Of a DNA stretch of 64,000 nucleotides, positions 3,601 to 60,300 are shown in pieces. Made by a program: the position numbers and the translations under genes. The notes below the pieces were generated by a model. The model was not told the origin of the DNA. It saw only the letters and a list, made by a program, of their open reading frames with translations, and ran no database searches. This DNA is from Zygnema cylindricum (taxonomy: Eukaryota > Streptophyta > Zygnematophyceae > Zygnematales > Zygnemataceae), in NCBI GenBank assembly GCA_037447655.1, contig JBBHKE010003059.1:126001-190000 (forward strand), given 5' to 3'. Each line of letters opens with the position of its first letter. Position 1 is the stretch's first letter.

Positions 3601-3870
3601 CCATGGTCCACTTCAATTTTGAATCTGTATTTCCTGGTTTTTGGCCAGGGTTTTTCCCTTTCCTTCCCCTGTCTTAAAAGACCCTCAAAACACTTAGACT
3701 CCGTGGTGAACTACTGTGATTTTTTTTACCTCTTAATTTTAGGCAATTTTAAGTTCCTGACCTTTTCCACTTAAATCGGGAATGTGTATTTGCTGTTTTT
3801 TGCCAGGGTTTTCCTTAGGGTCCTCCTTCCCTCCCCTGTCTTAAGAGACTCTTATAGTCATTCAGACGCC
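3601..3870 (+). repeat. Two tandem copies of the uS14 start-exon region
   Basis: About 160 bp is duplicated. The upstream copy (3601-3730) and the copy leading into the real start (3763-3895) share TCCACTT, TTTTTGGCCAGGGTTTT, CCCCTGTCTTAAAAGA and a final GACTCCGTGG / GACGCCATGG. In the upstream copy the start codon reads GTG and the coding part has decayed. Confidence 0.7.
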
Positions 3871-6818
3871 ATGGGTCACCAGGCAGTGTGGAACTCCCAC
3901 CCTGCAAAGTACGGACAAGGTTCTCGTCTCTGGTAAAGTCCCCATAAACCCTAAAAACCTTAAAACCCTTAAAAACATTTCGCTGAAACCTTCTATTATG
4001 CTGATGTTTCTTCTTTTTTATTCCAAGGTTGTTGTCCCTGGCTAGTGACCTTCAAAATATTAACAACCCTAAAAGTCCTTTATCTTTTTTATTTTTTCAT
4101 TCTAAGTCTCTCGTCTCTCATAAGTCTCCCTTGAAACCCTAGAAACCTTTTTGTCAACCTCTTACATTTTGCTGGTCATTCACACTCTTTATTTTTTCGT
4201 TTTTAGTTCAATATGAATTTTGTCAACCTCTTATATCCTGGGTTTTTCTCCTTCATTGGTTAGTTTTGTTCATGCAATATGATTTTTTTAACCACTTATA
4301 TTTCATCTTTTTAAATTTCACTTTTTAATTTTAGTTCAATATTTCCCTTTCCCCTCATGTCATAATCATTCGAATCCATATGCACCTTTTTTTCAGATAG
4401 CCCTCGTGATTTATTGTTTTTTGTCTTCTATTTTCTCTTGTGCCCCATTCTTCCCCAATATTGCTGGTGTCTGAAAATAAAAGCCGGATCTTTTTCCTGG
4501 CTTCCGCTTTTATTGACTTTACTGTGCTTGAGGTAATTCTGAAAGTATCAGTGTTTGTGTTTTATCTCGCCTCGGTTTTCCCTTTGTTTTTCATATCTTC
4601 TTTTATATGACTGCATTTGTCGTCTGCAGTTAGATTTTTTTGTACATGACCTACGTACTCAAGACTTCAACTTTTATGTATATCCCGTATGTTATTTAGT
4701 TCTGTGGAATGAGTCAAACAAAGAAAACTTATCGATTCTACTGAATCCTTCGCTATTGTTTCATTCAATGAAGCGATGTAACCTGGAAACTGGGATTCTT
4801 GCTGCTAAATGTTTTAACCTGTCTCTTCTTTACAGTTCGTTGTGGATTCCTTTCGACACTACACACAATTTTACACACATTTTTCCATTTGCTTTTGTGT
4901 CAAAAAGATTAAGTTTTTTCGTTTACAAAAATAGTCACCAAGTGTATTGAAATTCAGCTACAGGGTTCTTGAAAAAGAAAACTAAAAGTGAAATCTAACA
5001 AAAGGAGTCAATTAAACTATTTTTATTTTCACGTGATTGGTTACAGCGATATATTTGTCGCTCTTTACAAAGCTTTCATCCAATCTGGGTTCTTTGTCGT
5101 TATGTGCTTTAATTCGACTTTTTTTCTCATTAGCATTATTAGGTTTCTGTCCTTTAATCCGTTTAGGAGTCCCAACCTAGAGACGTCTTTTTAAACTTTC
5201 TAGGTTTCAGAAGAACGGACCATTTTATTTGATTTGATTTCCTACATTTTAGTTTTTATGAATGACTTATTCTTGCCAATTCTGTTATCTCGTAAAGTTT
5301 GTTTAATTGTCATGGCTGCCCTCCCCTCCCCTTTTTTCTGGTGAAGCTCACTGGTCATAACACGAACAATGTTGCCCTTTTTCAATGAATGAGAACTTAG
5401 GTCAAGGAGTTGAATTTCCTTAGTCATTTTTCCTTAGTCAGTTTCTGGAGCCGAATATACGGCACATTTTGAAATGGTGTCCTTTTTTTTTTTGAAGTAA
5501 GTATGCAGTGATCTTAGGGATTAGTGAGGAAGTATACTATCTTAGAAAACTAATTTTATTGGCTGCTTTCTCTATGAGGTGTATCGATTATAACAGCTAC
5601 ATTGTTGCCCGCCTTGAATGAGTTTTTAGGTCAAGGTTTTGAAAGTCATAAATTCTCGCTGCTTTTTTTCTGTTTTTTTGTTAATAAGGGTTACAATTAA
5701 AATAGCTTTTAGGTCGAGAAATTGAAAATCCCCTCTCTTTTTTTGCAGCCGAGTGTGCGGTAATTGCCACGGATTGGTGAGGAAGTACGGACTCAACACT
5801 TGCAGGCAGTGCTTCCGTATCTATGCCAAGGACATTGGCTTCATTAAGGTACTTTCTATTTTTGATTGGCCTTGTTGGAGTACTTCTGATTTTCTGTTGG
5901 CTTCACTGAGGCTTTTTCCTGTTTCCTTTAACTTATTGAGGGACTTTCGATTTTCTATTCACTTCATTTAGGTGTTTTCTATTTTTTTGCATTCAGCATG
6001 CATGTGTATTTTCTGTTCATAATTAGATCTGTGGATTTAGGGTTTTTTAAGATTGTTTAGGGTGTTTTTTGCTCTGTCCTTTCCTGGGCTACAGAGATTC
6101 CATTGTTTGCATGGAAGGGGATTATTAGGACCAGGGATCATGAGTTGGTTGTACGGAATCATTCATCATCAATCAAACCCTCTTGCAATAGAGTGTTTTG
6201 AAAACTTTTTCCAATCTTTTTTAGGAGCTATTTAAATCATATTGCTCCTTTACTTATTAAGTTTTTCGTCTGTCTTTATTTTGGGGACTAAAGTAAAAAC
6301 TCGATTGTGAGAATAGCTCATTTGAAAGATGGTTTTTTGGTCTAGTACGAGAGGTCTGGTTTACAGAGGCCTGAAAGTGGCTGGCCATTATGGAACGCTT
6401 TTCCACTCAAATTATTTAGGGTTACCTTATTAACTCACTAAATTGTTATGTCATTGTTAAGGTATTAGAACATAGGGTAATTAATTTGCGTTTGTGATCA
6501 TGTCATGCTACCCATATTTTCTGATAAATTATGATTTACTAAGCCTCTTAGACTTGCGATCACTTGCAATCAAGTCAACAGTGGTTAAATTCAGTGGTTC
6601 CTTTTGTTTTGGTTTTTTGGCTCCTTTACAGTCTTTGCGTAAAGTGACATATTTAAGCATGTTAATGACATCTTCATGATGTTTTTTCCTCCATGGTTTT
6701 TATCTTATTTTTGTTGCATGTACATCTGCCATTTGGCCTTGGTTTTCCGATTGCCAATATTGGTTTCCGTCGATTTCATTTTGACCCACATTTTTTTTTT
6801 CACGCGCAGTACAAGTAA
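3871..6818 (+). CDS. RPS29: Small-subunit ribosomal protein uS14 (S29), cytosolic
   Basis: Zinc-ribbon protein of the 40S head near the decoding site. Exons: 3871-3932, 5749-5848, 6810-6818, joining in phase to 56 residues, the usual S29 length. The start reads [11 protein letters not shown], followed by [15 protein letters not shown]. The four zinc cysteines sit in CRVCGNC and NTCRQCF, and the protein ends KDIGFIKYK. The first Cys codon (TGC) is split by intron 1. The last exon encodes only Tyr-Lys-stop. Introns are 1.8 kb and 1.0 kb, very long for such a short gene, and are largely built of tandem copies of the neighbouring exon edges (see findings). A telo-box lies upstream. The identity is certain from sequence; only the 5' UTR is undefined. 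Confidence 0.97.
5340..5990 (+). repeat. Tandem copies of both edges of uS14 exon 2
   Basis: Upstream, 5441-5545 is a degenerate copy of the acceptor and first part of exon 2 (GGAGCCGAATATACGGCAC, then GGATTAGTGAGGAAGTA, versus GCAGCCGAGTGTGCGGTAA and GGATTGGTGAGGAAGTA). A shared lead-in (TTTTAGGTCRAG..TTGAAA) occurs three times at about 5395, 5620 and 5705. Downstream, the donor region GGCTTCATTAAG|GTACTTTC repeats about every 45 bp to 5985, as GGCTTCACTGAGGCTTTTTC, TTATTGAGGGACTTTCG and ACTTCATTTAGGTGTTTTC. Confidence 0.65.
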
Positions 6819-8329
6819 GTCAACCGGATGGGCAAAAATCGATGCTGAGAGTGAGCTTCAAGGATGCAAATTTTTGCAACAATGGAGAAAGAAAAGAAAA
6901 AGGCTCCTGTGGAAAAGAAAACTTAGTAGAGAACCATCCTAATAGGCTATTCGCCTATTTTGGGTGCCTCTTCGGTTTTTAGACCAGAGTGTGGAATGGG
7001 CAGTACATATCGCCCTTGGGAAATCACAATATATGGAAACACCATTGTCATTTTGAAAAAGAAGGGCTAAATTCAAAAGTTGTTGTTTTGTGGATCAATC
7101 ATGTCAAAACATTTTATATGTTTTGTAATCCATGGCTTGTATGGTGAGGCCTGGAGCCTTTACCTCGGCTGATGCGGTTGTTGCAACAATAACTTGTTAG
7201 ACTCCCTTGCAATCATCAATACTTTGGCAATTACTAATTTTTTGTGCAATCCTTGATGTGTTATCCGGTGTCAAGTTGTTGGTCTCCTTGTTCATTAATG
7301 ACCAACTCACATGAAGTTTTGTTCTACACCGTGTACTTTTTAGCATTAATGTTTCTTTCCCCTCTTAAATCGGCTCTTTTCGCACACTTCTCAGATTGTT
7401 AATCCAATGGTTGTGACGGTAAGGTACGACCGTTGCCTTCCACATAACACTACAAAGAAATTTGGCACATTTGTACGGAGAAAAGTTGATGTAAATGGCA
7501 AAAAAAAAATGCTTTAAGGATTCACCGTGTATAGTACTGGTATGTCTACATTTTGGAGAATTTATGGCAATTTAAGATTTTCCAAAAAAAAACGTTTTCA
7601 GTTGGTTTGCAAAATGAAGTTAAAATAATGTAACCTGATTATTTGGATTGCCTAGATTATTTGGAGATTTCGGAGTCTCTGATGTGAGATGACAGGTGAT
7701 ACAATCCTCGGTTTAAACCACTCGTTAGTATTGTGTAGATTTGAGCAAATCTGGGATGAAAAGGAAAAGTGGAATAATTTATGGAGCAAGGAGAAAGGGG
7801 GTTCTAACGGATGCAAAATGGCGTAGCAAAAAAAATCTTGGGGCAGCATTAATGGGCGATCAAAGGAACCTCTATGTCCAAAGGATGTTCATGTCTATTA
7901 CTAAATTTCGCATTAGTCTTTTGACAAATCATGTTGTATGTCGCCGTATTCAGTATGCTGAGTGTTTTGGTCGTCGACAAAAGTCACTGCTGAAATGAAG
8001 TTGACCACAAAAACCAAAAAAACAATGCATGCAGTGGATCTAGGAAATCCTAACAAAGTTTCAGTGAAAAATCAAACATTTTAGACCATACTACTCTAGC
8101 GTCTGCACAAAAAGACAAAAAATGCTAAGGAATTGAGATGGTAAACCATCTGAGTACATGGGACCAAAGGAAACGAATAACAAGAACAGAGGAACTGAAA
8201 AACGGAACACTGGGAGAAACAACCAAAAAGAGAATAATAGCGTTAAGAAGACTATTAATTACTCTACGGCATTTATAAAAGAGCCCTGACATTTCTCGCT
8301 GCCATCATCCCTTGTGTCTCGGCCGATAC
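6819..8329. other. Intergenic, no gene recognised; ends in a family-C repeat
   Basis: The first part is presumably the uS14 3' UTR. No conserved ORF is seen. A reversed copy of the hairpin-ended repeat family lies at about 8133-8230 (GATGGTAAACCATCTGAG near 8139). Confidence 0.5.
8133..8230 (-). repeat. Hairpin-ended dispersed repeat, family C, copy 1
   Basis: On the minus strand it reads ..TTTTTCAGTT.., then ACTCAGATGGTTTACCATC. The last 14 bases, GATGGTTTACCATC, form a short perfect stem with a TTA loop. Related copies lie at 18838-19000, 35976-36185 and 36473-36690. Confidence 0.55.
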
Positions 8330-9225
8330 TCTTCCTTCCGCATACCGCTTCTCTTTTCACTTCTCATTTCTCTTCTCTTCTCAGTTCACTTTTCTCTTCC
8401 CTGTTCGCTTCTCTTATCGCTTCTCTTTTCACTTCATTTTTCGCTTCTCTTTTCGCTTCTCTACTCGCTTCTCTTCTCGCTTCTTCTCTTCTCACGTCTT
8501 CTCTTCTCGCTTCTTCTCTTCTCGCTTCTTCTCCTCTCGCTGCTTCTCTTCTCGCTGCTTCTCTTCTCGATTTTCTTCTCGCTTCACTTCTCGCTCTTCT
8601 TCTTGCTTCACTTCTCGCTTCTCTTTTCGCTTCGCTTCTTGCTTCGCTTTTCGCTTCGCTTCTCGCTTCTCTTCTCGCTTCTCTTTTCGCTTCTCTTCTC
8701 GCTTCTCTTCTCGCTTCTTCTCTTCTCGCGTCTTCTCTTCTCGCTGCTTCTCTTCTCGCTTCTCTTCTTGCTTTTCTTCTCGCTTCTCTTCTCCCTTCTC
8801 TTCTCCCTTCTCTTTTCCCTTCTTTTCTCCCTTCTCTTCTCCATTCTCCTCTCGCTTCTCTTCTCGCTTCATTTCTGGCTTCTCTTCTTGCTTCTCTTCT
8901 CCCTTCTCTTCTCCCTTCTCTTCTCTCTTCTCTTCTCCATTCTCCTCTCGCTTCTCTTCTCGCTGCTTCTCTTCTCGCTTCTCTTCTTGCTTTTCTTCTC
9001 GCTTCTCTTCTCGCTGCTTCTCTTCTCCCTTCTCTTCTCCCTTAACTTCTCGCTTCTCTTCTCGCTTCTCTTCTAGCTTCTCTTCTCCCTTCTCTTCTCG
9101 CTTCTCTTCTCGCTTCTCTTCTCCCTTCTCTTCTCCCTTCTCTTCTCCCTTCTCTTCCCGCTTCTCTTCTCGCTTCGCTTCTCGCTTCTCTTCTCGCTCT
9201 TCTTCTCGCTTCTCTTTTCCTAAGG
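8330..9225. repeat. ~900 bp CTTCTCGCTT satellite
   Basis: A continuous pyrimidine-rich array whose unit is a 10-15 bp variant of CTTCTCGCTTCT, with blocks of CTTCTCCCTTCT in the second half. Stops are absent in several frames for hundreds of bases on both strands, giving long artefactual ORFs of Ser/Leu/Phe repeats or Glu/Lys/Arg repeats. I see no splice sites or family similarity to support coding. Confidence 0.9.
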
Positions 9226-11101: not shown

Positions 11102-11246
11102 CCTTCTTTGGCAGATTTTCAATTTCTCAGTTCCATTAGTTGCTTCATTATCTCTCCTGGAATTTATTGATTTCATTCCATTTTTTTTCGTTTATTCCAT
11201 TTTCAAGATTCTTTCATGCTCATACAAAAATTTGTTCATTCACTAC

Positions 11247-11746: not shown

Positions 11747-11853
11747 CTACCCACTACCACTACCCACTACCACTACCCACAACCACTACCCACTACCACT
11801 ACCCACTACCACTACCCACTACTACTACCCACTTCTACTACCCACTACCACTA
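11743..11853. repeat. (CCCACTACCACTA)n microsatellite
   Basis: About eight imperfect units of CCCACTACCACTA start at the right end of the preceding element. No coding support. Confidence 0.85.
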
Positions 11854-17662: not shown

Positions 17663-17686
17663 TAAGGTGGGCATAACGCAATGTAA

Positions 17687-23949: not shown

Positions 23950-24307
23950 GTGTTGGGTATCGAGGACCCATTGCCGATATTCGATATATATCGAATTTCA
24001 TGTATCCGATAGTCGATACCCGATATTGAAATCATCGCAATGTATCACCAATATATCGCCGATATATCGTATCGACAATATATCGAAAATGAAAATTTTA
24101 TATCCCTGCGATTTTCGTACGATTCCCCGTACTCTTTTTCATACGGTTTTCCGTACTCTGACTGTACGGATATGCAATTTTTGCGATAAATATCGCGATG
24201 ATTTATGTTGGTCCCGGTACGATATATCGAGGAATCTGCTCGATCGATATTCGATATATCGAATATCGAAATTATCGCGATATGAAACTACCCGATACCT
24301 TACACTA
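23948..24307. mobile_element. hAT-like element built of CGATATATCG palindromes
   Basis: Ends TAGTGTTGGGTATCG and, inverted, TAGTGTAAGGTATCGGG. The interior is dense with CGATAT/ATATCG half-palindromes. It directly abuts the end of one TACACCG element and is followed by another such end (CTAATAGCGATAGCCGGCGTA), so the locus is nested. A related stretch lies at 62589-62720. No 8 bp target duplication is visible, so the hAT label is tentative. Confidence 0.45.
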
Positions 24308-24620
24308 CTAATAGCGATAGCCGGCGTAACTGTTCAGTTCACCACAATACAGCAGTGTATCGCATGGAGGAATTTCCGTCCAGTATGGCATCCGACGAGA
24401 TATGCGCACTTTTAGAAACACTGTTGTAACTTGTAAGTAAAGGGTGTGTTAGCGTCACGTCACGCTCCTTCTTTCCCTGCTTTTGACTTCTAACAGAATT
24501 TCCTCCTGCTTCTCCAAAATACTTATTGCATGTTGATTCATTCGCTACAGTACAGTACAATACTGTACTTATTTCCTGTTCATTCTCTCTTCCTTCTTCT
24601 CTCTTTTTTTCTCTTCCACC

Positions 24621-27600: not shown

Positions 27601-30600
27601 ATGTTTAAGATATCCCGAAAAGAACCCCTGTTAAGTCCCATGTAAAACGAACATGTTTGAGGGAGATATACAACTCCCTTTAAATCTTGGAAATCTCCAA
27701 AAATCCTGAAAAAAAATGCTGGAGAAAGCCTGGAAAATTCTAAATAATGTGGGTTAATGTAACCTCCTTTAATCCGGAAAATCCTGAAAATCCTGAACGA
27801 GAAATGCTGGAAAGAGCATGGACATTCCTTAATTGTGCGAGTTTCGGGTTTTGGATTTTTGAGGGCCGGGTGAAGGCGGGTCTCCTTGAAATCCTGGAAA
27901 ATCCCAGAAACCCTGAAAATAATGCTAGAAAATGCATGGAAACTACTAAAAAAGCGGGTTTTGGGTTTGGGTCTGGATTTTGGGACAGAGCGAAGGCGTT
28001 GATTGGATAATGCATATCGATACTGACGAACTCCTTTATCCAGCAGGGGGGTCAGAATATTCTCTACAACGTCTTTTGGAGGAAGTTGCCGATGATGTTG
28101 ACACTGTTATTTTTCCCAACTATGTACGATTGATTACTCTCCTACTTTTTAATGTTTGTCTATTTTTTAAGCTTAATTCTGGTTATGTTGCCAGTCAGTT
28201 CGCATAACCTGTTTTTCTAGCCTACTGTTTAGTAATTTAGTGGTTTTTCCTAATTATGTGCAATCACTCTCCTACTTGCCTACTTTTTCAGCCTAATTTT
28301 GATTATGTTGTCAATCATTGTACATTGCCTGTTTTTCTAGCTTCGATTGTTAGAAAATCTAGTGGTTTTTCTCGATTTTTTGTACAATTTCTCTCCTCTT
28401 TGCCCACTGTTTGCTGATTTTTAAGCGATAATGTTTCCCATTAATTTGAATAGCCTGTTTTTTTGCTTCTAATTTAGTTATTTTTTTCGATTATTATTTT
28501 CCTCTTTGCCCACTTTTTAAGCCTAATTCTGGTTATGTTGCAATTAATTTTCATAACCTGTTTTTTTTTAATACTTTTTAATATCATTTGGCGTGTCTGA
28601 GTGTCTTTTTTTCTATGAGGGCAAGACTTTAAGGACCTTGGGATGTACGGAAATTAACATCCGGGTTTTATTTTTTTTTGCTTCAGGAGACGGCTATTGA
28701 GAGAGATGATGTGAAAGATCCATTTGCTGAAGTAAGTGACAATATCTGGGGGAGGTAGAGAGAGGAGAGAGGGAGGGTGAAAATAATAGAAAGAGTGCTT
28801 TATCTCTTATAAAGGTTTCATTTTGCGAGAATTGCTTTTTATGTTGGAGTAGGGGGTACTACCATAGGCTTTCTTCTTCTATTTTTGATAAAAAAAACCA
28901 CCAATAAATACCGTTTACATAACCTGTTTCAAGTTTGTTCATGCAAGATGTTTTGAAGATGAAATATCCTAAAAAATCCTAGTTTATTTATTTTTCATAA
29001 TTTTCAGGACAGAAAGATCAAGAATAAAACTGTTGTTTTTGGATTCTGTGGTCCGAAAATATTGGACTTGAATATGCGTGGATTTGGATTTATGCAAATG
29101 AGTTCCCTGAGATAATCCACTAGTAATGGTGTACTTTATTATTTTCCAGGTTTCTATGTTTAAGAAGAATTACGATCATGTCGCCAAGGAAGTCTATTTT
29201 GGTCATTATCGGGAGGTAAGTTTTTCCATTAATGACCACAAAGAAACCTAAAAACCTTAGAAAAGTGTGATCTACAAATAACACTAAAAGACTCTAAATA
29301 GCAGTTTCACTTATAGTTGAATGGAATATGAATGAAACGTGTCTTCTTGTTCCAAATTGGGTTTTGTTCAAACAACGTGTTTGATTGGTTGTTTTTTATC
29401 GGACAGGGAGAGAGGGGAAGGAAAGAGGGAGAGACGGGGACAGACTTTCGGCTGGTCCTGTTTTACTTTGGGTCTCATGTGTTTTCATTTTTTCACTCTT
29501 TCGAAGATATGACTAGTCTTGGGCCTCAGGATTTTACCTCAGTCTTAGTCCTCATTGAGAGAACTCTTTTCTCCCCCCCCTTTTTTTTTCTTTTTTTTTT
29601 TTACGGTTAAGCATTGGAGACATAAATAATTCGCAGGCAGTCTTAAGTTTTTTTAGAATGAAGAGAAACCTTAAATTTATGAGAAATGTATGAGAATCAG
29701 CATAAATGTATAAATTTGTATATGAAATGTACAGAAAAACCAAGAAAACCTTCACAAACCCCAAGAAAAATGTAAAATATTTATATATCCTCATAAGTTT
29801 AATATTAATATTACATTAATATTAATATCAAGAATCCGAGGCAATTCCAGCTACTTTTCTGCCTGAAAAAAGTAAAAGAACGTCTACTCAAAAAACAACC
29901 AGCAAAAAACCCAAAAGTAGCTTTTAAAGCTTTAATAATATAGGTCACTTAAGAAATGTAAATAAATAAAAAAGAAACATGTTTTTGGCATTGGGGACAA
30001 TAGGCAACTCGAGGAAATCCCAACTACTTTCTCACTTATGGAAACGGAAAAGCTGCGGCTCGAATGAAAGATAATTTGAGACCCAATGGGGCGCATCGTT
30101 GGCATAATTATGCAAAAGCTCCCAAGTAAGTAAAGCCTTTTATGACCTTTTTGGTATTTAAGTTTTTTAGTTTTTTATTTTTTTAGCTTTTGGTTTCATT
30201 CCGTCCTTTTTTTTGCTCTACCCATGTATCAACGTTCCCCTTTCCATTCTCTCCTTCTCTCATCCTTCCATTCCTCAGAAATCTTTTCTTATATTGTTCT
30301 TATTTATTTATTTCCCTTTCTTTCATTATTTGCTTCTGCCTTTATTTCCTTTATTTATTTTTTCCTTCTTCATTTCATAGTTTTTCTTTAAGGAACCAAA
30401 ATTGGCAGAAGCGGCTGTCCTGCACTACTTTGGTTTTCATTCTCTCATTCTCTCCTTCTCTCCTTCTCTCATTCTCTCATCCTTCCATTCTTCAAGAATC
30501 TTCCCTTTGTTCTTTGCATATTTTTTTCTTCATTTATTGTTCTTTGTTTTCGGGAGCAAAAACTGGCAGAAGTGGCTCTGCACTACTTTTAGTCTTCATT

Positions 30601-33376
30601 CTCTCCTTCTCTCAATCTCTCATTCTCTCCTTCTCTCCTTCCCTCCTTTCATTCGAAGCTTCCCTTTGTCCTTTATTTATTTTGTTCTTTATTTATTTTG
30701 TTTTTTAATTTTTGTTCTCTGTTTCAGGGAGCAAAAACTGGCAGAAGTGGCTGTGCACTACTTTTAGTTTTCATTCGCTCATTCTCTCATTCGCTCACTC
30801 TCTGTCTCTCGTTCTCTCATTCTCTCAGTCTCTCGTTCTCATTCTCTCATTCTCTCATTCGCTCACACTCTGTCTCTCGTTCTCTCATTCTCTCATTCTC
30901 TCATTCTCTCAGTCTCTCGTTCTCATTCTCTCATTCTCTCGTTCTCTCATTCTCTCATTCTCTCGTTCTCTCATTCTCTCCTCCTCTCTTCTCATTTGAA
31001 GCTTCCCGTTGTTCTTTATTTATTTTGTTTTTTATTTATTGTTCTTTGTCTCAGGGAGCAAAAACTGGCAGAAGCGGCAGTCCTGCACTACACCTATGCC
31101 AAATTTTCGGACCTGACATCACGTCGCGACCGCTGCGGCTGCAAACCCAACAAGGAGGATGTTAAGAGATGCTTTATGCTCGAATTCGATCGAGAAGTAA
31201 GGCGGTTGAGAGGATTTTTATGAGTTTTTTCTTGTTTTTTTTTGGTCTGATTCTTAGTTTTTTTTTTTCGAGTCCTTTTTTCATTTTTTTTTTTTTTTTT
31301 TGGTTTTTTTTTTCCATGTTTTGTTTTTTTTTTTTTCAAGTAAAGCCTTGAAAGAATGGTAGAGATTGTTTTGACAATTTACTCTATACTCATCTTTTCC
31401 TTGTCTTTCTGTTCTTTTCTTGTTTCTCGTTTTTCTTTTCTTTAACCGCCTTTTTTTTTTCCTTAGATTTTTAACTTGAATTTTATTTTTCTTGACATTT
31501 TTTTTTCAGGCTTTCATTATTGCATCAACACATGATAAGGAAGGAATGCTTAAATGGTACATTCTTCATACCCTTCCAAATACACATCAGGGGAGAGAGA
31601 GAGAGGGAGAGAGGGAGAAAGAGGGGGGAGAGGGAGAGATGGAGAGGGGAGAGAGAGAAAGGAGAGGGGGAGAGGGAGAAGAACAGGGGGAGGGTGAGGA
31701 GGGGGGGGGAGGGAGGGGAAGGGGAGAGGGAGGGGGAGAGGAAGGGGGAGGAGGGGGAGGAGTGTAAAGGTAACACAATGTCAAAAATGTCGAATGTCCA
31801 ATGTCCAATGCCTAATGTCAAATAGTCAATTTCCAATTTCCAATGTCCACTGTTGCATGTCTGATGACCTATGACCAGTGACCGATGTTCAATGAACACG
31901 AGATTAAGGGCGAGCGCAATATAGAGAGAAAGTAAGAGAGAGAGTAAGAGAGTGAGACGAAGCGAGAGAGAAGAGAGAGGGAGAGAGAGAGAGAGTGTGA
32001 GAGAGAGATGGAAAAAGAGAGAGTCTAAAGCTTCATTTTATTAAGTGAGATTCATTCGTCAATTTAACAGACATGGAAACTTTGTGTAACGGGAACATGG
32101 TATGTCACACGGAGAGGGATGCAGGTACCAGGAACATGTAGTGTGGACAGATGCAGAAGTGAACCAAAAGTTACTGAAGAAAGGACTTTTTGGACGCATT
32201 CACACTCCCCAGGTAAGAACCCATTCTGTCCCTTTTTTATCTCCTGGTTGTTTTCCAACTACAAAGTGAAAAAAATAGCGATCGTTGGCGATTTTCTTTT
32301 ACCCTCGTACTCTTTTACCCTCGTACTTGATAACTTTTGTCTGTCGCTTGTATGCATGTGGTTTAGTGTCACTAAATTTGAGTACGAAAAGGTACTGTAC
32401 AAAGTGGAGCCAAATATACCACTGTGAAATGAAAGAAATATCTGAAATTTCGAGGACTTCAATTTAATTTGAGCATGATGACTTTTTTTGACAGCATGCT
32501 CAAATATAACGATATTGACTACAATTTTTGAAGGGTATTTTTGATTTAACGATGTTGGATAGAATTTTGAGTGTAAGTTATAGTTTGAATCGCTTCTAGG
32601 TTAATAACACTAATTCAGCTCCGGATTTTTCTATCCTCCAAATTATGTTTTTCAGAAAAGTAGTTCTCTAAGCGGTTATTAATCGTTCACGTCATTTGTA
32701 ACTGAATTATATTTTTTTACACTTAAACAGTCCTCATGCTAACTGTTTCTTTGCTCTAATAGCAATGTTTACTCTACAGTTTAAATCACCTGAAAAATTG
32801 TTGGAAAATCGTTGAAAAATTGTTGAAAAATCGGTGAAACTTATTTAAAATTTGCTGAAAGATTTTTCTTGGAAATTTTTTGAAAGTTATTCGTCAAAAA
32901 GCTGTTGAAAATATGTTGAAATTTTGTTGATTTTGGTGTGTATACAGGTTGTGATTCGAGGAGTTTTGAAATCCGGTATGATTGAAGACGCGATGAAAAG
33001 AGGAGAAGAAATGAGGGCAGCTGCAAAAGCAGTAACCGCCTTAAAAGATAAGCAAAAATTGGGGAATAATGACAAAAATGACCTTAGTTTTCAATCGTTT
33101 GGGGATAATGATGAGTCTAATTTACAAAAACCATTAAAGTCAGAGGATGAGAGAGAGGACGCAAATACGAAGGGAAATACTAAGGATTTTGACTTTAAAG
33201 ATGCCAAATCACAAAATCTTCGAGGTTCAGAGGTTTCTATTAAGAAACGGGTTAAAAAGGGAGAGGATTTTGGAAGTACCAAAAGAAAACGTTTAAATCA
33301 AAGACAAATTTTATCTTTTGATGAATTTGCAATGCCTCCTATGCCATCTCCGGGATTGGAGGATTCTCCCTTTTGA
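24621..33376 (+). CDS. GT92/DUF23-like glycosyltransferase, type II membrane protein
   Basis: Twelve in-phase exons: 24621-24908, 25718-25867, 26085-26137, 26560-26668, 27989-28123, 28687-28731, 29150-29215, 30004-30125, 31055-31196, 31510-31556, 32125-32212, 32948-33376; about 557 residues. Residues 5-24 are a hydrophobic signal anchor, implying a Golgi/ER lumenal enzyme. The catalytic core holds [11 protein letters not shown] (about 206-216; DTD is the expected DxD nucleotide-sugar/metal site), [41 protein letters not shown] and the Cys-rich RRDRCGCKP (about 346-354), all as in land-plant homologues I recall. The last 140 residues are a charged, Lys-rich, low-complexity tail. Family placement (GT92 or Pfam Glyco_tranf_2_4) is from memory, and donor and acceptor sugars are unknown. 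Introns hold many exon-edge copies. Confidence 0.9.
26735..26925 (+). repeat. Tandem repeat (~75 bp, three units) in GT92 intron 4
   Basis: Units contain AACAATGTTCTCTTGAATCA and ACTAAAGGCGAAGATG. I see no clear relation to an exon edge. Confidence 0.7.
27158..27341. mobile_element. MITE, TACACCG-family, in GT92 intron 4
   Basis: Left end TACACTGCCTATTACTACTA, right end CTAACGGAGATTGGCCGTGTA; diverged inverted ends bounded by TA. About 184 bp with no ORF. Confidence 0.55.
28105..28570 (+). repeat. Tandem array seeded on the GT92 exon 5 donor
   Basis: The exon 5 end and donor (TTTTTCCCAACTATGTACGATTG, then ACTCTCCTACTTTTTAA) recur as TTTTTCCTAATTATGTGCAATC near 28246, TTTCTCGATTTTTTGTACAATT near 28368 and TTTTTCGATTATTATTTTCC near 28482. 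Each is followed by CTCTCC/CCTCTTTGCCCAC, a GCCTAATTCTGGTTATGTTG block and ATAACCTGTTTTT. Period is about 120-140 bp. Confidence 0.75.
30389..31054 (+). repeat. Three pseudo-copies of GT92 exon 9 start plus (CATTCTCT)n
   Basis: The first ~40 bp of exon 9 (GGAGCAAAAACTGGCAGAAG..) is copied at 30389-30431, 30551-30588 and 30724-30763, ahead of the real exon at 31055. Spacing is about 161, 174 and 328 bp, that is, multiples of a ~165 bp unit. Between copies are CATTCTCTC arrays and a TTCCCTTTGTTCTTT block. The third copy keeps an intact acceptor (TGTTTCAG|GGAGC) but reads into a stop (TTTTAG). Confidence 0.85.
31580..32030. repeat. Purine-rich (GGGAGA)n and (GAGA)n tracts in GT92 intron 10
   Basis: 31580-31765 is a polypurine tract (GAGAGGGAGAGG variants, including a run of nine G). 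After a short ATGTCCAATGTCC repeat at about 31785-31850, a second GAGAGA tract runs at about 31918-32030. Long ORFs across it are compositional artefacts. Confidence 0.9.
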
Positions 33377-37100: not shown

Positions 37101-37105
37101 TGAAG

Positions 37106-43100: not shown

Positions 43101-45277
43101 AAAGAACCAATTCTAAACATTAATAATTCAATAATCAGGCCTGTAGTTGCAGCCTTCCAAATGAATAGCTAACAAACAGATTACAAACTATTAAAACAAA
43201 GGTGATTGCTGGACAATCTTCCACTGTTGATTCTCAAAAGAGGAGTAAACTATCAACTGCTCTCAAAAGCCACAGTTCATTGGTAACTTCCAAAAAAGTC
43301 AGAACAGGGTGAAATCCTACCTGGACTGAATTTACTTCATCAGTTTCGCCATAAATTTTGCGCCACCTATCAAATCCAGCGGTGTTAAAGTATTTACGGA
43401 CCTGTCACAAAACACAAGCAGAGACAATTCAAAGGTAGTACACACCAAATAATTAAAAGGGATACATTTTATTAGATTTCACTTTTCAATAAAAAAAAAA
43501 AAACAAGTTGAATGTCCTCAATGTTGTCGATATGAAAAAAAAACATTCACCATTAGTTTAGTTTAGTTTTTTTATACAGAGATTTAAAATACTAGGACAC
43601 AGGACATGTAATACACTTAAACAATGAACTACCAGTCCCACAAGCATTCTATCGAATAAAAATACAATCTGATGTTTTGATTTCATCGTTTGGAGGCATA
43701 ATTTGATAGGAAACTTTTTAAAAACACGAAAGACAGGGACAGCAATTGTTTGTACTTACAACATCCTTTTCATCACCGCCCACCTCAGCTGCCTGTTTTT
43801 GTCTCCTGCAAAATTAACAAAAAATAACCGACAGCGACAAATCAGTGCTGTAGCATACAAAATCAGAGTGCAAAAAATATCCATTTTTGAACAATGAGCC
43901 TTTACATTTAATAAAATAAAGTGAACTGTACATATGATCTGAAATTTGAAACATTTTTTATGTATATTCAGAATTAACATCCGGCGCCTTGTTGTCACAA
44001 ACTCAAATAAAATAACAAAATGTCAGAGACACACGGGACACCATGAAGAAACTATAACCATTTTGTTAAAAATCTTAAGTAGCTTCAAGGTAATAGCGCG
44101 GTTTTTTGATAACAACAACATAAGACTAAATTTTTTTTTTTTGAAAAACCTCAAACTTTTCAGAAATGTCAAAATTGTTAGTACTGATGAAAATCACAAT
44201 CAGAGTCTAGTCAAAACCTTGAGCTGATTACAGCAGCACGTACAAATGCAAAAATATCCCACATTGTGAATTTCAATGAAAAACGATTGACTTGTTATTT
44301 TTTAGAATCTTATGCATACAAATTATCCACCAATGTTGGAAGAAAATAACAGTAAAAGGTTTCCACAGCTAAATATATGTGAACTGCTTGAATGTGACGT
44401 GATAAACACTAATACTCTTTCAACAAAAGTAAAATGTAGTAAGATACACCAATATTGTAAACACTTTCAAATTTACAGAAATATAGATGAAAAATATAGC
44501 GTTTGAGGGAGTAGTTCTGAGTGGCTATTTATTTTATACATGTAAAACCCATCAATATGACCAGACTGATAAAATCTCATATTTTGTTATCATTACAAAT
44601 TACGAATACATAATCTTTACAAGATATTTTTATGTATTACCAAAGGAAAGATTTAGTACCTTTTTTCTGGACCAATGTCAACGCTAATTTCAAAGTCACA
44701 AAAATGTCACAAAAATGTAAATATAGTGTAACATAATATGACAATGTAAATGTATGCGTTTTGGTGTTTTACCTCTTTTCTGGAAAAATTAAAGACAGAG
44801 CTGCGGCAGCAGAATGATAATATAGTGTGTACCATCCTAATAACAATGTCTGAAAAGATATCTATACCGTATGGAAGGAAAGATTTCTTACCTCTTCTCT
44901 GGATCAGTCAAAGTCAGAGCTGCGGCAAGAGCAGCAATAGCTCCTCCACCAGCAATAGCAAAGCTCACTGTGGAGCCATCAGTTGCAATACTTGAAACCA
45001 AATCAGCAGCATTAGCATTTCCTGCCTCAGTTAAGGCTCCAAGAAAAACAGCAGCAGCTGAAGCAGCACTTGTACAAGAAGCATTTGAAATAACTGGTCT
45101 ACTTTGAGAAGAGGAAGAGGAAGAAGATGACGAGGTTGAAGTTTGGCAAAACACAGAGGGAGAACGAGCTGACAGAGGTTTGGAATCTGCAGGTGTATTA
45201 GATGGTTTTGTAAGGTTGTGACTTTTGCAGAGGAAAGGATTGGAAAACTGGAGAGTTGTTGCTCCAAGGGTCGCCAT
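37106..45277 (-). CDS. CHLM: Mg-protoporphyrin IX O-methyltransferase, plastid
   Basis: SAM-dependent enzyme methylating Mg-protoporphyrin IX to its monomethyl ester in chlorophyll synthesis (plastid envelope/thylakoid). Eleven exons: 44892-45277, 43760-43805, 43321-43401, 43014-43052, 42527-42597, 41386-41449, 40142-40250, 39506-39540, 38771-38869, 37981-38064, 37106-37195. All are in phase, about 367 residues. Residues 1-80 are a Ser/Thr-rich transit peptide, then an Ala-rich hydrophobic stretch before LTDPEKRRQKQAAEVGG. WRKIYGETDEVNSVQ and LDIRQGHAQTVEK lead to SAM motif I VTVCDAGCGTG (197-207). Also DISSSM, FEASDLESLSGKY, DVLIHYPQ, LILSFAPYTP, RIGELFPGPSKATRAYLHAE and the C-terminus FYFSRLLEAVP. 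The identity is unambiguous. It is longer than the ~312-residue Arabidopsis protein because of the N-terminus. Intron 4 has a GC donor (AAG|GCAAGC). Introns carry exon-edge copies, satellites and a tRNA fragment. Confidence 0.97.
37300..37765 (-). repeat. ~65 bp tandem array seeded on the CHLM exon 11 acceptor
   Basis: Units on + read GCATTGCTATCCAACAGAAT then TTGGAGA. The real exon 11 edge on + reads CACTTGCCATCCAGCAGCCT then GCAAAATCCTCC, so each unit looks like a degraded copy of the acceptor plus the first codons. About seven units fill most of intron 10. Confidence 0.6.
38075..38262. repeat. (AACAACATAAACAT)n / (GAATGTGAGCAT)n microsatellite
   Basis: Imperfect AACAAMAWARACAT units grading into ATGAGCATGAATGTG units, in CHLM intron 9 close to the exon 10 acceptor. 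Confidence 0.8.
39647..39800. mobile_element. ~150 bp MITE, family D, copy 3
   Basis: Terminal inverted repeats ATAGGGTATTTATAC and (right end inverted) ATAGGGTAATTATATG. The interior shares GTACAATTTTCTAC, GATCACTC and CCAGTAATA with 1309-1463 and 22685-22830. It lies in CHLM intron 7. Confidence 0.6.
40268..40515. repeat. (GGAGAAGGGGAA)n purine tract in CHLM intron 6
   Basis: Polypurine on +, hence polypyrimidine in the CHLM pre-mRNA, ending about 18 bp before the exon 7 acceptor at 40250. It may act as, or compete with, the polypyrimidine tract. Confidence 0.9.
40633..40685 (-). pseudogene. 3' half of a tRNA-Ala(AGC)-like sequence
   Basis: On the minus strand the sequence reads CTTAGCATGTGAAG, like the anticodon arm of tRNA-Ala (loop TTAGCAT, anticodon AGC), followed by CTTGGGCTCGATTCCTACG, a T-arm/B-box-like stem-loop. 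The upstream D-arm and acceptor half are absent. It is therefore a fragment, either a tRNA pseudogene or part of a tRNA-derived SINE. It sits in CHLM intron 6. Confidence 0.35.
42239..42438. mobile_element. MITE, TACACCG-family, in CHLM intron 5
   Basis: Left end TACACTGCCCAAAGTCATTA, right end CTGACAGCGATGGGCAGTGT. The interior GGCCAGAAAAAGTCACGACC matches the 230-423 and 56100-56303 subfamily in inverse orientation. Another element's right end (GATAGCAATGGGCAGTGTA) directly abuts at 42240, so two members are nested or adjacent. Confidence 0.65.
42875..42990. repeat. ~20 bp tandem repeat in CHLM intron 4
   Basis: About six units of GAGATAGTTAAAACAACYTG, lying just beyond (on +, left of) the exon 4 GC donor. 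Confidence 0.7.
44637..44935 (-). repeat. Two pseudo-copies of the CHLM exon 1 end with donor sites
   Basis: The real exon 1 end on + is GGAAAGATTTCTTACCTCTTCTCTGG with AGAGCTGCGGC (TTACC is at 44888-44892). Degenerate copies occur at 44644-44680 (GGAAAGATTTAGTACC..TTTTCTGG) and 44768-44815 (TTTTACCTCTTTTCTGG..AGAGCTGCGGCAGCAG). Spacing is 113 and 119 bp. Both keep a GT at the donor position. Confidence 0.8.
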
Positions 45278-47253: not shown

Positions 47254-47883
47254 CCCCCTCTCGCTCTCCCTCTCCCTCTCCCTGTCCTTTCCCCATTCCG
47301 CCTCTCCCTCTCTCGCCCCCTCTCCCCCTCTCCCTCTCCCTCTCCCTCTCCCTTCCATCTCCAATCCCTCTCCCTCTCCCTCTCCCTCTCCCTCTCACTC
47401 TCATTCCCTCCCCCCTCTCCCCTCTCCCTCTCCCTCTCCCTCTCCCTCTACCTCTCCCTTCCATCTCCAATCCATCTACCTCTCCCCCTCTCCCTCTCCC
47501 CACAAAAACAATTCAATCGATGTTCACGCGACCTTTTTCCCGATAATCCCTCCCTCTCCCTCTCCTCTCGCTCCCCCTTACCTCTCCCTCTCCCTCTCCC
47601 TCTCCCTTCCTCTCCTCACAAAAACCATTCGATCGACTTGCCCGCGTCCTTTCCTGATAACTCGCTCCCTCTCCCTCTCCCTCCCTCTCCCTCCCTCTCC
47701 CTCCCTCTCCCTCCCACTCAGGAAAAAAATTCGATAGATTTTCCCGCGACCTTTTCCCAATAAATCACTCCCTCTCCCTCTCCCTCTCCCTTTCCTCATC
47801 ACAAAAACAGCTCCACGGATTTCCAACTTTCCGATAAATCGCTCCCTCTCCCTCTCCCTTTCCCTCTTCCTCCCTCTCCCTCC
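47254..47883 (-). repeat. (CTCCCT)n array with tandem copies of the OMA1 last-exon end
   Basis: CTCCCT arrays alternate with four degenerate copies of the final ~50 bp of the OMA1 gene (AYTTATCGGGAAAGGTCGCG.., then TTGTTTTTGTGAGG on the minus strand) at about 47512-47550, 47625-47665, 47735-47768 and 47805-47848. Each has a stop-codon-like TGWGG end. The functional copy ends at 47884. Confidence 0.8.
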
Positions 47884-52433
<4,550 letters not shown>

Positions 52434-54377: not shown

Positions 54378-57300
54378 ATGCGCCTCCTGCATTCCCTTCC
54401 TCTTACCGTAGATGTCTCTCATCCTGTCTCTGCCATCTTCTCTCTAACATCCATTCGGTCTAGCGTCTATTCATCCTCATTTTCTCCTGCCGGCGGAGTA
54501 GCGGCCGTTTGCCGTCCGCTTATGATTCGCCTTCCGGCTGCCATCTCTATTCCGTCAATATCGCAGATATCTTCAGTTACTCACGTCCGTAGTGATTTCC
54601 TTGTCGTACGATCCGTACTTTCTGCAGTTTCCGTACAACCTCCTACTTCCGCCATGAAGTACTCCAAGTTAGGATCGTCCGATGTGCTGGTGTCAGATGT
54701 ACGGATGACAACCTAAAAATGACCTCTTTTTTTTGTTTTTTTTTTACACAATGCTTTTCTCTTTTGCATTTCCGTGGGCATGTAGCCAGTTTTTTCATTT
54801 GTATCAGAGTGAAATGTAATTTCAAAGATATTTTAGTATTCACGTTTCTTTCTTCTGGAATGTGGATAAATTATTTTATTCCTTTTGATTGATTATTTTT
54901 CTTTCTAGAACCCTTATTGGCAGAATTTGATTTTGAAGCCAGGTTTGTTCAACCCTATTTTTTGTCCCAGTCTCCGAACCCTCATACGTGTGAATAAAAT
55001 TATAACTGTGGCTTAATTATATCTGTTCACACTTGCTAGTCTTATTTTTCCACGTCTAAGTCTTATATTTAACTTGCAAGTCTTTTTTTGCCTTGCAGGA
55101 CTTGTGTTTCATTCGGTAGTCATTTCTTACTTGCAATAATTTTTTATTTTCAAGTCCTATATTTTACCGGCAGGTCTCATTGTTTTTACTTGCAAGTCTC
55201 ATTCGTTTACTTGCACGTCTTATTTTTTCCTTGCAAGTTTTTTTTTTTTTTTTTACTTGCAGGTTTGTATGGGGACAATGACTTTTGGTGAACAAAATTC
55301 TGAAGAAGAGAGCCATGCTTTGCTGGATTACTGTTTGGAAAGAGGAGTTAACTTTTTTGATACAGCAGAAATTTATTCAGTTCCGATCCAAGCACAGACC
55401 GCGGGACGATCGGAAGAGATATTAGGAACATGGCTTAAGAAGCAACAAAGAGACAAGATAATCATAGCTACAAAGGTGAAGTCCTTTTTTTTGTTGGACT
55501 TGATCTCATGTATATTTTTTCTTTGCAATTTTTTCTTCAAATGTTGTTTAATGGAATGAAATCTTCACCGATGATTTGTTGCAGTTGATCGCTTGTCTTA
55601 GATTTTCTTGAACGCTTTGTTGTAACAAGTAATGTGGATATGTTTTTTTTTTCTTGTGCCATTGTTTAACGTAATTAGTTTGGATATATTGACTATTTTT
55701 TTTCACTTCATAAATTAATTTGGTCTATAGACTCTAAAAACCCTGGAAAATCCTAGATTATTTTACCATATGCTGACCCGGATTTTCTGAGGCCTAGACA
55801 TAGATTACTATGGACCATAAGAATTACTAGAGAAGTAATATGTGAAAAATGCACAATTTTTTTTGCGTAGATATATTGTCTTACTTCTAAACCATTAGTT
55901 GGACTACACTAATTTAGGAATTTGTAGGATTTTTCACCCTCGTTTGTTGCTAAAAAGCTCCATTTTGTTAAAGAAAGACTGTTTGGATGGTAAGCGCCCA
56001 TTCTTAGTCTCATTTTTTTAGTGTACATGAATTGATGTGGACTAAAATAAGTTTCCATGTATTCTTTTAGTCTGTACAAACTAATTTCTGCGCGAGTGGT
56101 ACACCGCCCATCGTTATTAGTGTTAATAACACTAATTCGGTCGCGACTTTTTTTTGGCCAAAAATCACAAAATAGAGTTAACAACATTATTTAAGGAAGT
56201 GGACCAAAATCCTCCACGTCACCTTGCACTAAATTAGTATTATTAATTCTAATTTCGCATTTACACTAATTTTTCGTTAACACTAATTACGATGGGTGGT
56301 GTAGTGCTTACATAAGAAAACATGTGGATACCAGCCACCGTGGATATTTTTTCGTTGCAAAGTACATTTTTGGCCCATATGATTATTGGTCCTACAAAAT
56401 TCTTATCCAAGTTAATTTATGATGAAAAAAGTTAAGCCCATACAATAGATGAGTGTTGCAAATACAGTATTGTACCTGTTAATACGGCATGCTAACCTTT
56501 GATTATTGAATGCGTGTACCATACTGTGAATTTCTATTCGTATTTCTATTATTTTTTATAAGACGCTAATTCGGTTCTATTTATTTCTGGCCTCTGAACA
56601 TGGAATAACGTTAATGATACTATTTTTTTTTTCACGTTGATTCTTTAAGCGGTTCAGAATCGTCTACATCATTTGTAACAGGAATAGTATTAGTAACACT
56701 AAAACAGTCCTGATACTAATCATTTTTTAACTCTAATAGCAATTCACGGAGTACCATCCACCCATGTCAAATTAGATTTTTGTGAAACAAACTTCAATTA
56801 TTTTCTTGCAAGTCACATTTTCTACGTATGAAGCTCCGTTGTTGAAACTATATATGTTCTTTTTCCTTGTCAAACGTCTTCCTCGTCATGTGTGGGTTCA
56901 TAACTTTGACTTTGGAATCAAAAAGTAAGGGCAAAATTAGTGATAGAAAGGCAGGTAGACCGGAGGGAGGGAGGGAGGGAGGGAGGGAGAGGGAGCGCGA
57001 GAGGGAGGAAGAAGGAGAGAAATGATGGTAGAGAAGGCGACAAGAGGCGGAAGGGTGGACGGATGTGGAAGGAAACAGCCATTTATTTTATTACGTCTTT
57101 AAACTGGACATTGGCAAAATTATGCTGGCGTTGTCAGGTCGCGGGTTTCATTCCTAAGTCTCATGTTCCTGGAAATAGGTTGACTCCTCGGTCAAATGAT
57201 CCTCAAGATTGTCGATTAGACAGAGAGAGCATTAGGGAGGCATGTTTGGGAAGTTTACGACGACTTCAAACTGATTATATCGACTTATATCAGATCCATT

Positions 57301-60300
57301 GGTGAGTTGGTCTAATTAAGTCTTTTTTTTTTTTTTTTGTTCAATTTAATTAGATTTGGTTTTTTTGCGTTGAGTTGAGCTGATTTCATTTGATACGATT
57401 TTGCTTTTCTCTTTGCTTTTCTTTTCTTCAATTACTGGCAATGGATGACAGAATTTCATTTTTTCAATTTTTCATTTTTTTTTCGTTTCATTTTTTTTTT
57501 CATTTTTCTATTTTTTTTTTTATTATAACACCTCTTTTTATTCTTTTTTTTTCAATGTCTTTTATACGTTATCCATTGTTTTCCTTCTATAGTTCGTCAA
57601 TTTTCACATCTTCCAAGTTTTGAATTATTATATCCAATCATGAGCTTAATAGAAGAATCTTAGTTTCTGAGGAGATGAATTTTAGCTTAATGGCTTAAAT
57701 CCCCAATATTTCACATGTAGATTCAGGAAGCAAACCTATATTTTTTACTGTGAGGGATCCTGTTGTAAAAATTGCCTTACAAAAAGACATAATTTTCACA
57801 CCTACTTAAAGATGTGAGGAAAGAATCCCAGCTGATCCAATAGAGAACCTATTTTTTTGTCATACGTCTCCTTGTTTTTGACATACTTATCATGGAAATC
57901 TTTGTTTAAACTGATTTACGGTCATTCGTAACTTGATTAAGGTCATTCCTAACTTATACTTTCCATGGAAAGTTCCGTTAAACTGATCTGTAATCATTTA
58001 TCATTTGCATTTGAGATACTCCTGTAGAAACTACCATTGAACTGATTTGTAGCCATCGACCAACTGCATGAGAGATTTACATGGAAAGTTTATATGGAAA
58101 GCTCCATGAAACTGAACGGAACTGAGAGTTTTTTCGCAGGCCGGACCGTTATGTCCCTTTGTTTGGACAAACAGTTTATAATCCAAAGCAAGAACGTTCC
58201 TCCTCTGTTCCCATCAAGGAGACAGTGGCAGCCATGGGAGAATTGATCAAAGGTTGGTAGATTTCTTAAGCTAGGGTTTGGCGACATTTGTCGTGTCTCT
58301 GCCTCTCCCTCTCCCTTTATCACTCTTGCTTTCCCTCTCCCTCTCCCTCTCCCTCTATGACTCTTGCTTTCCCTCTCCCTGGCTCTCTCCCTCTCCCTCT
58401 TCCTCTCTCTCTCCCTCTCCCTCTCCCTCTCCCTCTCCCTCTCCCTCTCCCTCTCCCTCGCCCTCGCCCTCCTCCCTCTCCCCTCTCCCTCTCCCTCTCC
58501 CTCTCCCCCTCCCTCTCCCCCCCTCCCTCTCCCCCCTCCCTCTCCCCTCTCCCTCTCCCCTTCCCTCTCCCTCCTCCCCTTCCCTCTCCCTCTCCCTCTC
58601 CCTCTCCCTCCCTCTCCCTCTCCCTCTCCCTCTCCCTCTCCCTCTCCCTCTCCCTTTCCCTCTCCCTCTCCTTTCCCTCTCCTCTCCCTCTCTCCCCTCT
58701 CCCTCTCCCTCTCCCTCTCCCTCTCCCTCTCCCTTCCCTCTCCCTCTCCCTCTCCTCTCCCTCTCCCTCCCTCTCCTCTCCCTCTCCCTCTCCCTCTCCC
58801 TCTCCCCCCTCCCCCTCCCCCTCTTCTGCCTCTCTCTCTCCCTCTCTCCTTCCCCCTCTGTCCCCTCTCCCTCCCACTACCTGTCCCCCTCTCCCTCTCT
58901 CTCTCTCTCTCCCCCTCTGGCGGAAGGAAAAATCAAGGCCTACAGTCTCCTCCAATGAGACGACTTTTGAAGTGTGATTTTTTCCGATGCCTGACCTTTC
59001 TCCCTCTCTCCCTCTCTCTTCCCCCCCCCCTCTCCCCCCTCTCTCCCTCTCCCTCTGCCTCCTATTAGAGGGCAAAATCAAGGCCTACGGTCTTTCCAAT
59101 GAGACGACATTTGGAGTATGTGAGTTTTGCCGGGTGGGCTGACGAGCTTGGAGTCTCTCGCCCCAGTCAGCATTCAGAACAGTTTCAGTCTTCGTCACCG
59201 ATCTTTTGAAACGGAACTGGCGGAAGCATGTGCTCCGTCAAACTACAATATCGGACTTCTCCCATGGAGTCCTTTGGGAGGAGGTGAGAGAAGACCAAAA
59301 AAAATGTTTATAAAGAAAAATAGAAAGAAAAAAATGTTATGAAGAACAGTAGAAAGAATAAAAATGTTATGAGAAAGATAGAAAGAAAAACATGCGGAAA
59401 AATGTGCATTGTCAAACTATAATGTCGGAAGAAGAAAAAAAAATTATAGAGGGAGGAGGGAGGAGGGAGGAGGGAGGAGGGAGGAGGGAGGAGGGAGGAG
59501 GGAGGAGGGAGAAGGGAGGAGGGAGGAGGGAGGGAGGAGGGAGGAGGGAGGAGGGAGGAGGGAGGAGGGAGGAGGGAGGAGGAGGAGGGGAGGAGGGAGG
59601 AGGGAGGACGGAGGAGGGAGGAGGGAGGAAATTAGCTTGTCTATTTTCTGTTTTGGTTTTTTTTGGCCGAGTCAATGAAGATAGAGGGGATTTTTTTTAG
59701 CACCGATGGAATATGGTTTTCTGGTTTATTTTTGAAAAAAAAAAAATTTTAAACATTGTTTATTTTTTTTCTTGTTACAGGTGCATTATCTGGAAAATAT
59801 TTGGGTGGGAAAAAGCCAGAAAAGTCTCGATTCACAATGTTTAAGGATTATCAAGTTCGATATATAACTCCTGCAAGTTTTGAGGCTATTGGAAAATATG
59901 TTAAGATTGCAGAAAAAGCAGGTGAGGTACAGCTTTTTGTTCATGCTATGGGTAAGGTATGTGTTTTTTTTTCAATTGATTTTCTATCCAGTTCAGTTTG
60001 ATGGTTCGGTTTGGGAGTTTTGGATCAGTTCAGTTCCCTTCCGTTCAGATCATTTGATTTTGGTCCAGTTTATGTCAGTTCAGTTCAGTTCTGTGTAGTT
60101 CAGTTTAGTTTGGTTTATGTCAGGCCGGTTCGGTTCTGTTTGGTTCAGTTCAGTTCAGTTTAGTACAGGCCAATCTCGTTTAATTCGGTTTAATTTAGTT
60201 TAGTTAAGTTTTGTTCAGTACGTTTGGTTCAGTTCAGTTCATCTCATTTTAGTTCAGCTCAGTACGGCTCAGTTCAGTTCAGTTTCATTCAATGTCTTTA

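Follow-up and report, generated by a model that had tools for sequence, protein, structure and literature searches.

Do genes gain intron DNA through duplications that begin at exon boundaries, or through duplications that fall anywhere and only later come to look as though exons had anchored them? The stretch analysed here (64,000 nucleotides, hereafter the window; part of contig C2295 in a genome of 352.8 Mb and 2689 contigs) raises this question, as an initial annotation had described degenerate copies of exon ends beside five of its genes (uS14, GT92, CHLM, OMA1 and AKR) and, less clearly, beside HST, and had taken exon boundaries to be their starting points. We find that the copies are local and direct, and suggest that the duplications behind them were probably blind to exon boundaries.

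Copies of exon ends beside their exons

Models of the six genes were built from 33 exons placed by reading and splice context, and seven further exons were added after protein comparison. The joined exons of uS14 (Ribosomal_S14), CHLM (Mg-por_mtran_C, 95 bits) and GT92 score above the Pfam cut-offs, as do single exons of OMA1 (Peptidase_M48) and AKR; the sixth gene (UbiA, under the Pfam cut-off) we tentatively take to be HST from comparison with a query sequence. The genes present suggest an alga, probably one of the green lineage. The GT92 frame stays open through 12 exons with no stop before its end, and relative to query homologues there is one frame change each in OMA1 exon 6 and AKR exon 4, the former being absent from a further copy of OMA1 sequence in contig C1289 (described below).

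Each 40-bp exon edge was compared with the next 500 bp of intron or flank, a score of at least 15 counting as a match. Direct copies were found at 10 of the 79 edges (OMA1 5/12, GT92 2/24, uS14 1/4, AKR 1/14 and CHLM 1/21, the last having been 0/10 in a first, incomplete model that lacked six exons), and all five genes therefore bear out the initial annotation with at least one edge each. Mismatched exon–intron pairings in the window matched in 7 of 4852 cases, equivalent to 0.11 expected edges; such scarcity of matches between edges and the flanks of other genes also gives no sign, within the window, of introner-like dispersal. No edge scored at least 15 against reversed neighbourhoods (0/79) or had an inverted copy (0/79), exon-interior windows reached this score in 1 of 82 comparisons, and 500-bp neighbourhoods starting 600, 1200, 2000 and 3000 bp away gave matches at 1/77, 1/77, 0/76 and 0/75 edges. 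The count against mismatched pairs had been put forward as the way to check the pattern, and an excess is present both in the six window genes and in TCP1-family genes from other parts of the genome, where 7 of 104 edges (here the ends of HMM matches, not exact splice sites) matched at a score of at least 15 versus 35 of 9674 mismatched pairings. The TCP1 set uses 56 of 73 rows, 53 of them inside retrieved stretches; the 17 rows left out are 12 haplotig rows of C315, C2437 and C1411, one C598 repeat and four single rows.

When the segments aligned straddled the exon edge, 10 of 79 edges passed versus 3 of 79 reversed controls, all three of which were satellite-rich OMA1 and AKR edges. Seven of these ten align across the splice junction with exon and intron sides both included (two in uS14, GT92 exon 9, both ends of OMA1 exon 3, AKR exon 4 and CHLM exon 1, the last with only 4 intron bases); at the stop end of OMA1 exon 6 the alignment crosses the exon edge, and the remaining two alignments lie within the intron only. 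Wider segments add three cases, namely the uS14 exon 1 donor, the 5' flank of the uS14 start exon and the 3' end of AKR exon 4.

On the forward strand, the 5' flank and start of the start-codon exon of uS14 (source 3781-3874, ATG at 3871) recur as a decayed copy at 3622-3706, with a local alignment score of 41 that none of the 2760 other window positions compared reaches. The donor end of exon 1 (3871-3932 in the gene model) recurs at 4104-4149 (straddling score 26, reversed control 9; equalled at 0 of 2767 other places), where the donor GT has become AT. Of exon 2 (5749-5848), the acceptor and roughly the first 40 bp recur at 5469-5534, found by both the edge and the straddling tests and strongest at 5500-5534. 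A copy of the entire exon 2 was considered and rejected, as its second half scores 8, a value equalled at 921 of 2760 other places. In GT92, also on the forward strand, the 5' edge of exon 8 (30004-30125) is copied at 29837-29878 (score 15; 32/41 identical), and the acceptor region and first 34-40 bp of exon 9 (31055-31196) are present in three extra copies within 30392-30764 (30392-30431, 30553-30586 and 30728-30761), which are separated by a TCATTCTC satellite. Two GT92 copies are identical at 32 of 34 positions. A search for a second locus resembling the GT92 region found none apart from the satellite (40 of 394 candidates scored).

The copies in CHLM and OMA1 lie on the reverse strand. The 3' edge of CHLM exon 1 (at 44892) has a copy at 44769-44808 that retains the donor GT (score 24, reversed control 7). 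OMA1 exon 3 (50553-50285) is copied at both of its ends, the 5' edge at 50629-50676 (39/47 identical) and the 3' edge, with loss of the donor, at 50122-50162 (35/41); the 3' edge of exon 4 (49724-49538) is found at 49314-49375 (51/60), and that of exon 5 (48875-48724) at 48436-48481, across a CT satellite (36/46). Four copies of the stop-codon end of exon 6 (48132-47884) occupy 47501-47843, with a GGGAGA satellite between them. In AKR, on the forward strand, the 5' edge of exon 4 (59069-59283) is copied at 58926-58986 (53/60), edge and copy alike being preceded by a CTCTCC satellite, and the 3' part of the same exon is copied at 59389-59429 (32/41), a match detected with 60-bp edges and missed with 40-bp ones. 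The copied ends include acceptors and donors as well as a start exon and a stop exon, as originally described. HST was rejected as a case, since 0 of its 4 edges has a copy scoring at least 15. The sequence upstream of HST holds a diverged array with a period of about 62 bp.

Most window copies are 75-90% identical, and none of the pairs found comprises a whole exon with both splice sites. Start-to-start spacing across ten pairs runs from 123 to 327 bp and so extends past the 45-240 bp first given. Satellites had been said often to separate the copies; a purine/pyrimidine tract of at least 30 lies in 6 of 12 exon–copy gaps (combined P 0.002), a count that leans on OMA1, to which five of all the gaps belong, four of them with a tract.

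Exon edges and other positions in the same genes

A mismatched-pair control cannot tell anchoring on exons from local duplication in general; other positions in the same introns can. We slid the exon map of each gene along that gene in 1000 circular shifts, and set apart as low complexity those windows with a reversed-control score of at least 12. With these left out, 9 of 75 edges match (12.0%), compared with a shifted mean of 12.3%, and 278 of the 1000 shifts reach the observed count. When low-complexity positions are kept, the edges number 10 and the shifted mean is 17.85, with 994 shifts reaching 10. Entropy matching gives a similar picture at moderate score, with 8 of 67 edges and 150 of 1373 intron windows (taken away from exons) matching at a score of at least 15, and 0 of 52 entropy-matched exon-interior windows. 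With rising score the two diverge: edge and intron rates are.119 and.109,.104 and.074,.075 and.035, and.060 and.012 at scores of 15, 17, 20 and 24, respectively, that is, ratios of 1.1, 1.4, 2.1 and 5.0. Taken together, these rates indicate that edges are not copied more often than intron positions, and that their copies are better preserved.

Edge copies also depend on how duplicated the introns of a gene are. Three duplication-rich TCP1 loci (6-15% of intron windows duplicated) have matches at 6 of 26 edges, and the other eight at 1 of 78 (seven with 0-2%, one without measurable intron windows); a gene's edge copies thus track how densely its introns are duplicated. The introns of the six window genes are more densely duplicated (230/1575 windows) than the sequence outside them (118/2710), and low-complexity content correlates with duplication density at a Spearman coefficient of 0.73 over 18 tiles (12 of 14 10-kb loci plus six window tiles, leaving out L050, L052 and 17 short loci and keeping L054 even though it is a haplotig of L053). 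Exon-edge anchoring as such is rejected on the shift test, the intron comparison and the gene-by-gene comparison together, and the part of the original interpretation that had duplication starting at exon boundaries is not supported; the part that envisaged local tandem duplication, with the exon kept and the copy decaying, is supported.

Proposed boundary-blind duplication and its competitors

We propose, with a probability of about 0.72, that boundary-blind local tandem duplication combined with selection on exons explains the edge copies. Gene bodies in parts of this genome would gain DNA through local tandem duplication of tens to a few hundred bp, irrespective of boundaries. Where a duplicated stretch crosses a boundary, splicing could stay with the copy that is joined to the rest of the exon, and the other exon end would be left stranded in the intron with its splice site and then decay. 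Selection on the exon side would slow divergence, and exon-end pairs would remain recognizable for longer than pairs of intron sequences, so that old duplications come to look anchored on exons. The purine/pyrimidine satellites are a likely trigger (that is, through slippage or template switching) and may often have been left between the copies. The boundary-blind origin, the one-sided constraint and the satellite-triggered mechanism are what we infer from the comparisons above.

A simple simulation with boundary-blind duplication, free introns and constrained exons (one age, not fitted, ten settings) can yield the observed pattern. When each copy has taken 0.14 substitutions per site, the setting with few indels gives edge/intron ratios of 1.00, 1.17, 1.54 and 2.53 at the four scores, and the setting with more indels gives 1.49, 2.00, 3.20 and 7.87; the observed ratios fall between the two at all four scores. 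Ratios are below 1 in the two settings with 0.05 substitutions per site and reach up to 16 in the oldest settings. With ages spread evenly, edge/random ratios are 0.88-1.12, and no edge excess appears; the fit hence depends on mostly old duplications, and constraint alone would yield no excess if young ones were frequent. The one-age design followed a self-search in which 0 of 16 gene pairs were at least 90% identical (18 of 63 pairs were kept, by an entropy filter that favours exons). Young pairs do exist, as some arrays are 93-98% identical, in addition to the 32/34 pair of GT92. Present-day duplication is hardly seen in three haplotig pairs (23.6 kb aligned, at loci that are poor in duplications), where one of 16 indels of at least 10 bp resembles a tandem duplication (10 bp) and another is a dinucleotide repeat (72 bp). 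Identity within pairs is equal for exonic and intronic sequence (444/587 and 592/780), a comparison weakened by low-complexity introns.

A further, less probable account holds that satellite-primed template switching builds the introns in part of this genome, with forks that stall in purine/pyrimidine satellites re-copying neighbouring exon ends, and sometimes pieces of other genes, and thereby seeding decoys and poison exons. The arrangement that bears on it, L063, which also speaks for the main account with its satellite trigger, lies in contig C1289 and is a young case outside the window. A genome search with OMA1 returned one close further copy, which is partial: the stretch 47678-48623 (reverse strand; CT satellite, exon 5 copy, exon 6 and post-stop copies) is present in C1289 between two copies of the end of another exon, at 904 of 954 identical positions. 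The repeat that flanks it consists of the last 94-97 bp of this exon with its donor and at least 640 bp of the next intron, and is 98% identical over 686 bp; the exon has a weak zinc-finger match under the Pfam cut-offs, and its limits were read by eye. Between the repeat copies, the 950-bp OMA1 piece includes exon 6 as well as the exon 5 copy and two of the copies that follow the stop; its core differs at 11 of 640 positions, and both parts of the arrangement are about 98% identical to their sources. One join falls in a CT satellite common to both sides and the other at TCG. A search with the flanking region found no further locus beyond the two copies (6 matches, the others short). This structure suggests L063 as a candidate for a single template-switching event, provided that the assembly is right at this point.

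Included in this template-switching account is the proposal, which we likewise regard as doubtful, that the OMA1 exon 5 copy is a poison exon that still bears a signature of protein-level constraint. The copy differs from its exon by nine synonymous changes and one non-synonymous change, is preceded by a pyrimidine-rich TCTAG, retains a GT at its end and is nearly identical in C1289. Such a ratio does not fit the free decay that boundary-blind duplication would entail; it suggests either a coding past or, among 14 copies, chance.

That duplication truly begins at exon boundaries, for example where polypyrimidine tracts or splicing-linked R-loops stall replication, seems unlikely to us. Strong copies are in excess at edges, with 6 non-low-complexity edges scoring at least 20 where shifted maps average 2.85 (6 or more in 54 of 1000 shifts) and 3 versus 0.77 at high scores in the TCP1 loci (13 of 300 shifts reach 3), and the OMA1-heavy tracts in the gaps would suit such stalling; a mild true preference for edges at high similarity may therefore exist. 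Against this stand the parity of edges and other positions at moderate similarity, the way in which edge copies track the intron duplication density of the gene, and the ability of a boundary-blind simulation to yield the same excess.

Selective retention of the copies as putative decoy splice sites or poison exons is improbable. The OMA1 exon 5 copy, with its substitution pattern, TCTAG and GT, would be the best case for it, but a single such outlier among 14 copies is not very surprising. Over these 14 copies (excluding those of CHLM exon 1 and uS14 exon 1 and the third of GT92 exon 9), the codon differences from the exon comprise 31 synonymous changes, 54 non-synonymous changes and three new stops, that is, 57 of 88 are non-synonymous or stops; the 35% that are synonymous are about what is expected for one constrained and one free copy (roughly 40% by our reckoning). 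Among seven edges with an aligned splice dinucleotide, it is kept in three copies and lost in four, and there is no sign of upkeep.

An origin in assembly, through collapsed or misjoined repeats or haplotypes, is very improbable: the assembly does contain haplotigs, the window has two coding frameshifts and 10 N, and the divergence of about 2% between the two copies at L063 resembles that of the assembly's haplotigs (1.8-6.6%), but most copies in the window, at 75-90% identity, are too diverged for read noise or haplotypes, the GT92 pair (32/34) being closer. The birth of introns by tandem duplication of exonic, AGGT-bearing segments, a mechanism known from PMC3443670 and PMC2891723, is likewise very improbable as an account of the copies as remains of the birth event: in several of them stretches of intron and polypyrimidine tract were copied along with the exon end, and there are arrays of three copies in GT92 and of four in OMA1.

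Relation to known systems

Boundary-blind duplication, if it is the correct reading, carries a warning that exon-linked repeats can look exon-anchored merely through the slower divergence of exons, and L063, if confirmed, would link template switching set off by satellites with exon pieces moving from one gene to another. Template switching (FoSTeS/MMBIR) is marked by microhomology or shared repeats at the joins and by a templated insert. L063 is alike in its ectopic 950-bp insert, its local duplication and its microhomology and satellite joins, and unlike in that it is one candidate locus. Intron minisatellites and microsatellites are likewise tandem, local, satellite-rich and blind to function, whereas the copies described here are low in number and strongly diverged, and their unit includes exon sequence. 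In tandem exon duplication, exon sequence is repeated beside itself; in the pairs found here, only the end of the exon is copied.

Both intron gain by tandem duplication and our cases involve coding sequence with splice-like motifs that was duplicated locally and in tandem, and they differ in that here existing introns grow; tandem duplication is treated as a source of introns in PMC2891723 and PMC3443670. A precedent is the potato RdRp gene, in which a tandem duplication runs across an intron–exon boundary (PMC4974935). The potato case is alike in that the boundary is crossed and the copy takes in the exon end along with its splice site and polypyrimidine tract, and unlike in that a new spliced intron resulted there, whereas here, at the level of DNA, extra sites lie inside existing introns of many genes. 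Keyword searches of open papers returned, among the matches listed, no account of a single genome with many such copies. We rate boundary-crossing tandem duplication as a known kind of event and its density here as unusual, and this genome, as a dense natural sample of such duplications, could shed light on intron growth and on the origin of cryptic splice sites.

Local duplications and the OMA1 exon 5 copy

Local duplications were approximately three times denser within the introns of the six modelled genes (230 of 1,575 windows) than outside those introns (118 of 2,710). The intronic copy of the 3′ edge of OMA1 exon 5 (exon at 48875-48724, minus strand) lies at 48436-48481, where its borders consist of a pyrimidine-rich TCTAG and a GT; nine of the ten differences that separate this copy from its exon are synonymous.

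Other repeats and arrays

A diverged array with a period of approximately 62 bp occupies 1101-1593, which in the minus-strand direction places it upstream of the HST exon (931-1082), and a minisatellite of TTGCAAGT units (55031-55248; period of approximately 20 bp) adjoins the first modelled acceptor of the aldo/keto reductase gene, AKR (55263). The repeat at 24026-24319 recurs in at least 39 other genomic places, with 84-97% identity over approximately 200-330 bp.

State of the assembly and the second OMA1 locus

Frame changes were observed within OMA1 exon 6 (48033-48012) and AKR exon 4 (59136-59166), and are perhaps assembly errors or recent lesions. Among the loci compared elsewhere in the genome, the contig pairs L049/L050, L051/L052 and L053/L054 (divergence of 1.8-6.6%) look like haplotig pairs, and the assembly is thus only partly haploid. 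On another contig, the stretch that holds a second, partial OMA1 copy (C1289:79800-83000) contains, as assembled, a 950-bp ectopic OMA1 piece flanked by tandem repeats of the end of another exon and its donor (positions 809-3201 of that stretch). The repeated exon end has a weak zinc-finger match; one of the joins falls within a CT satellite and the other at TCG.
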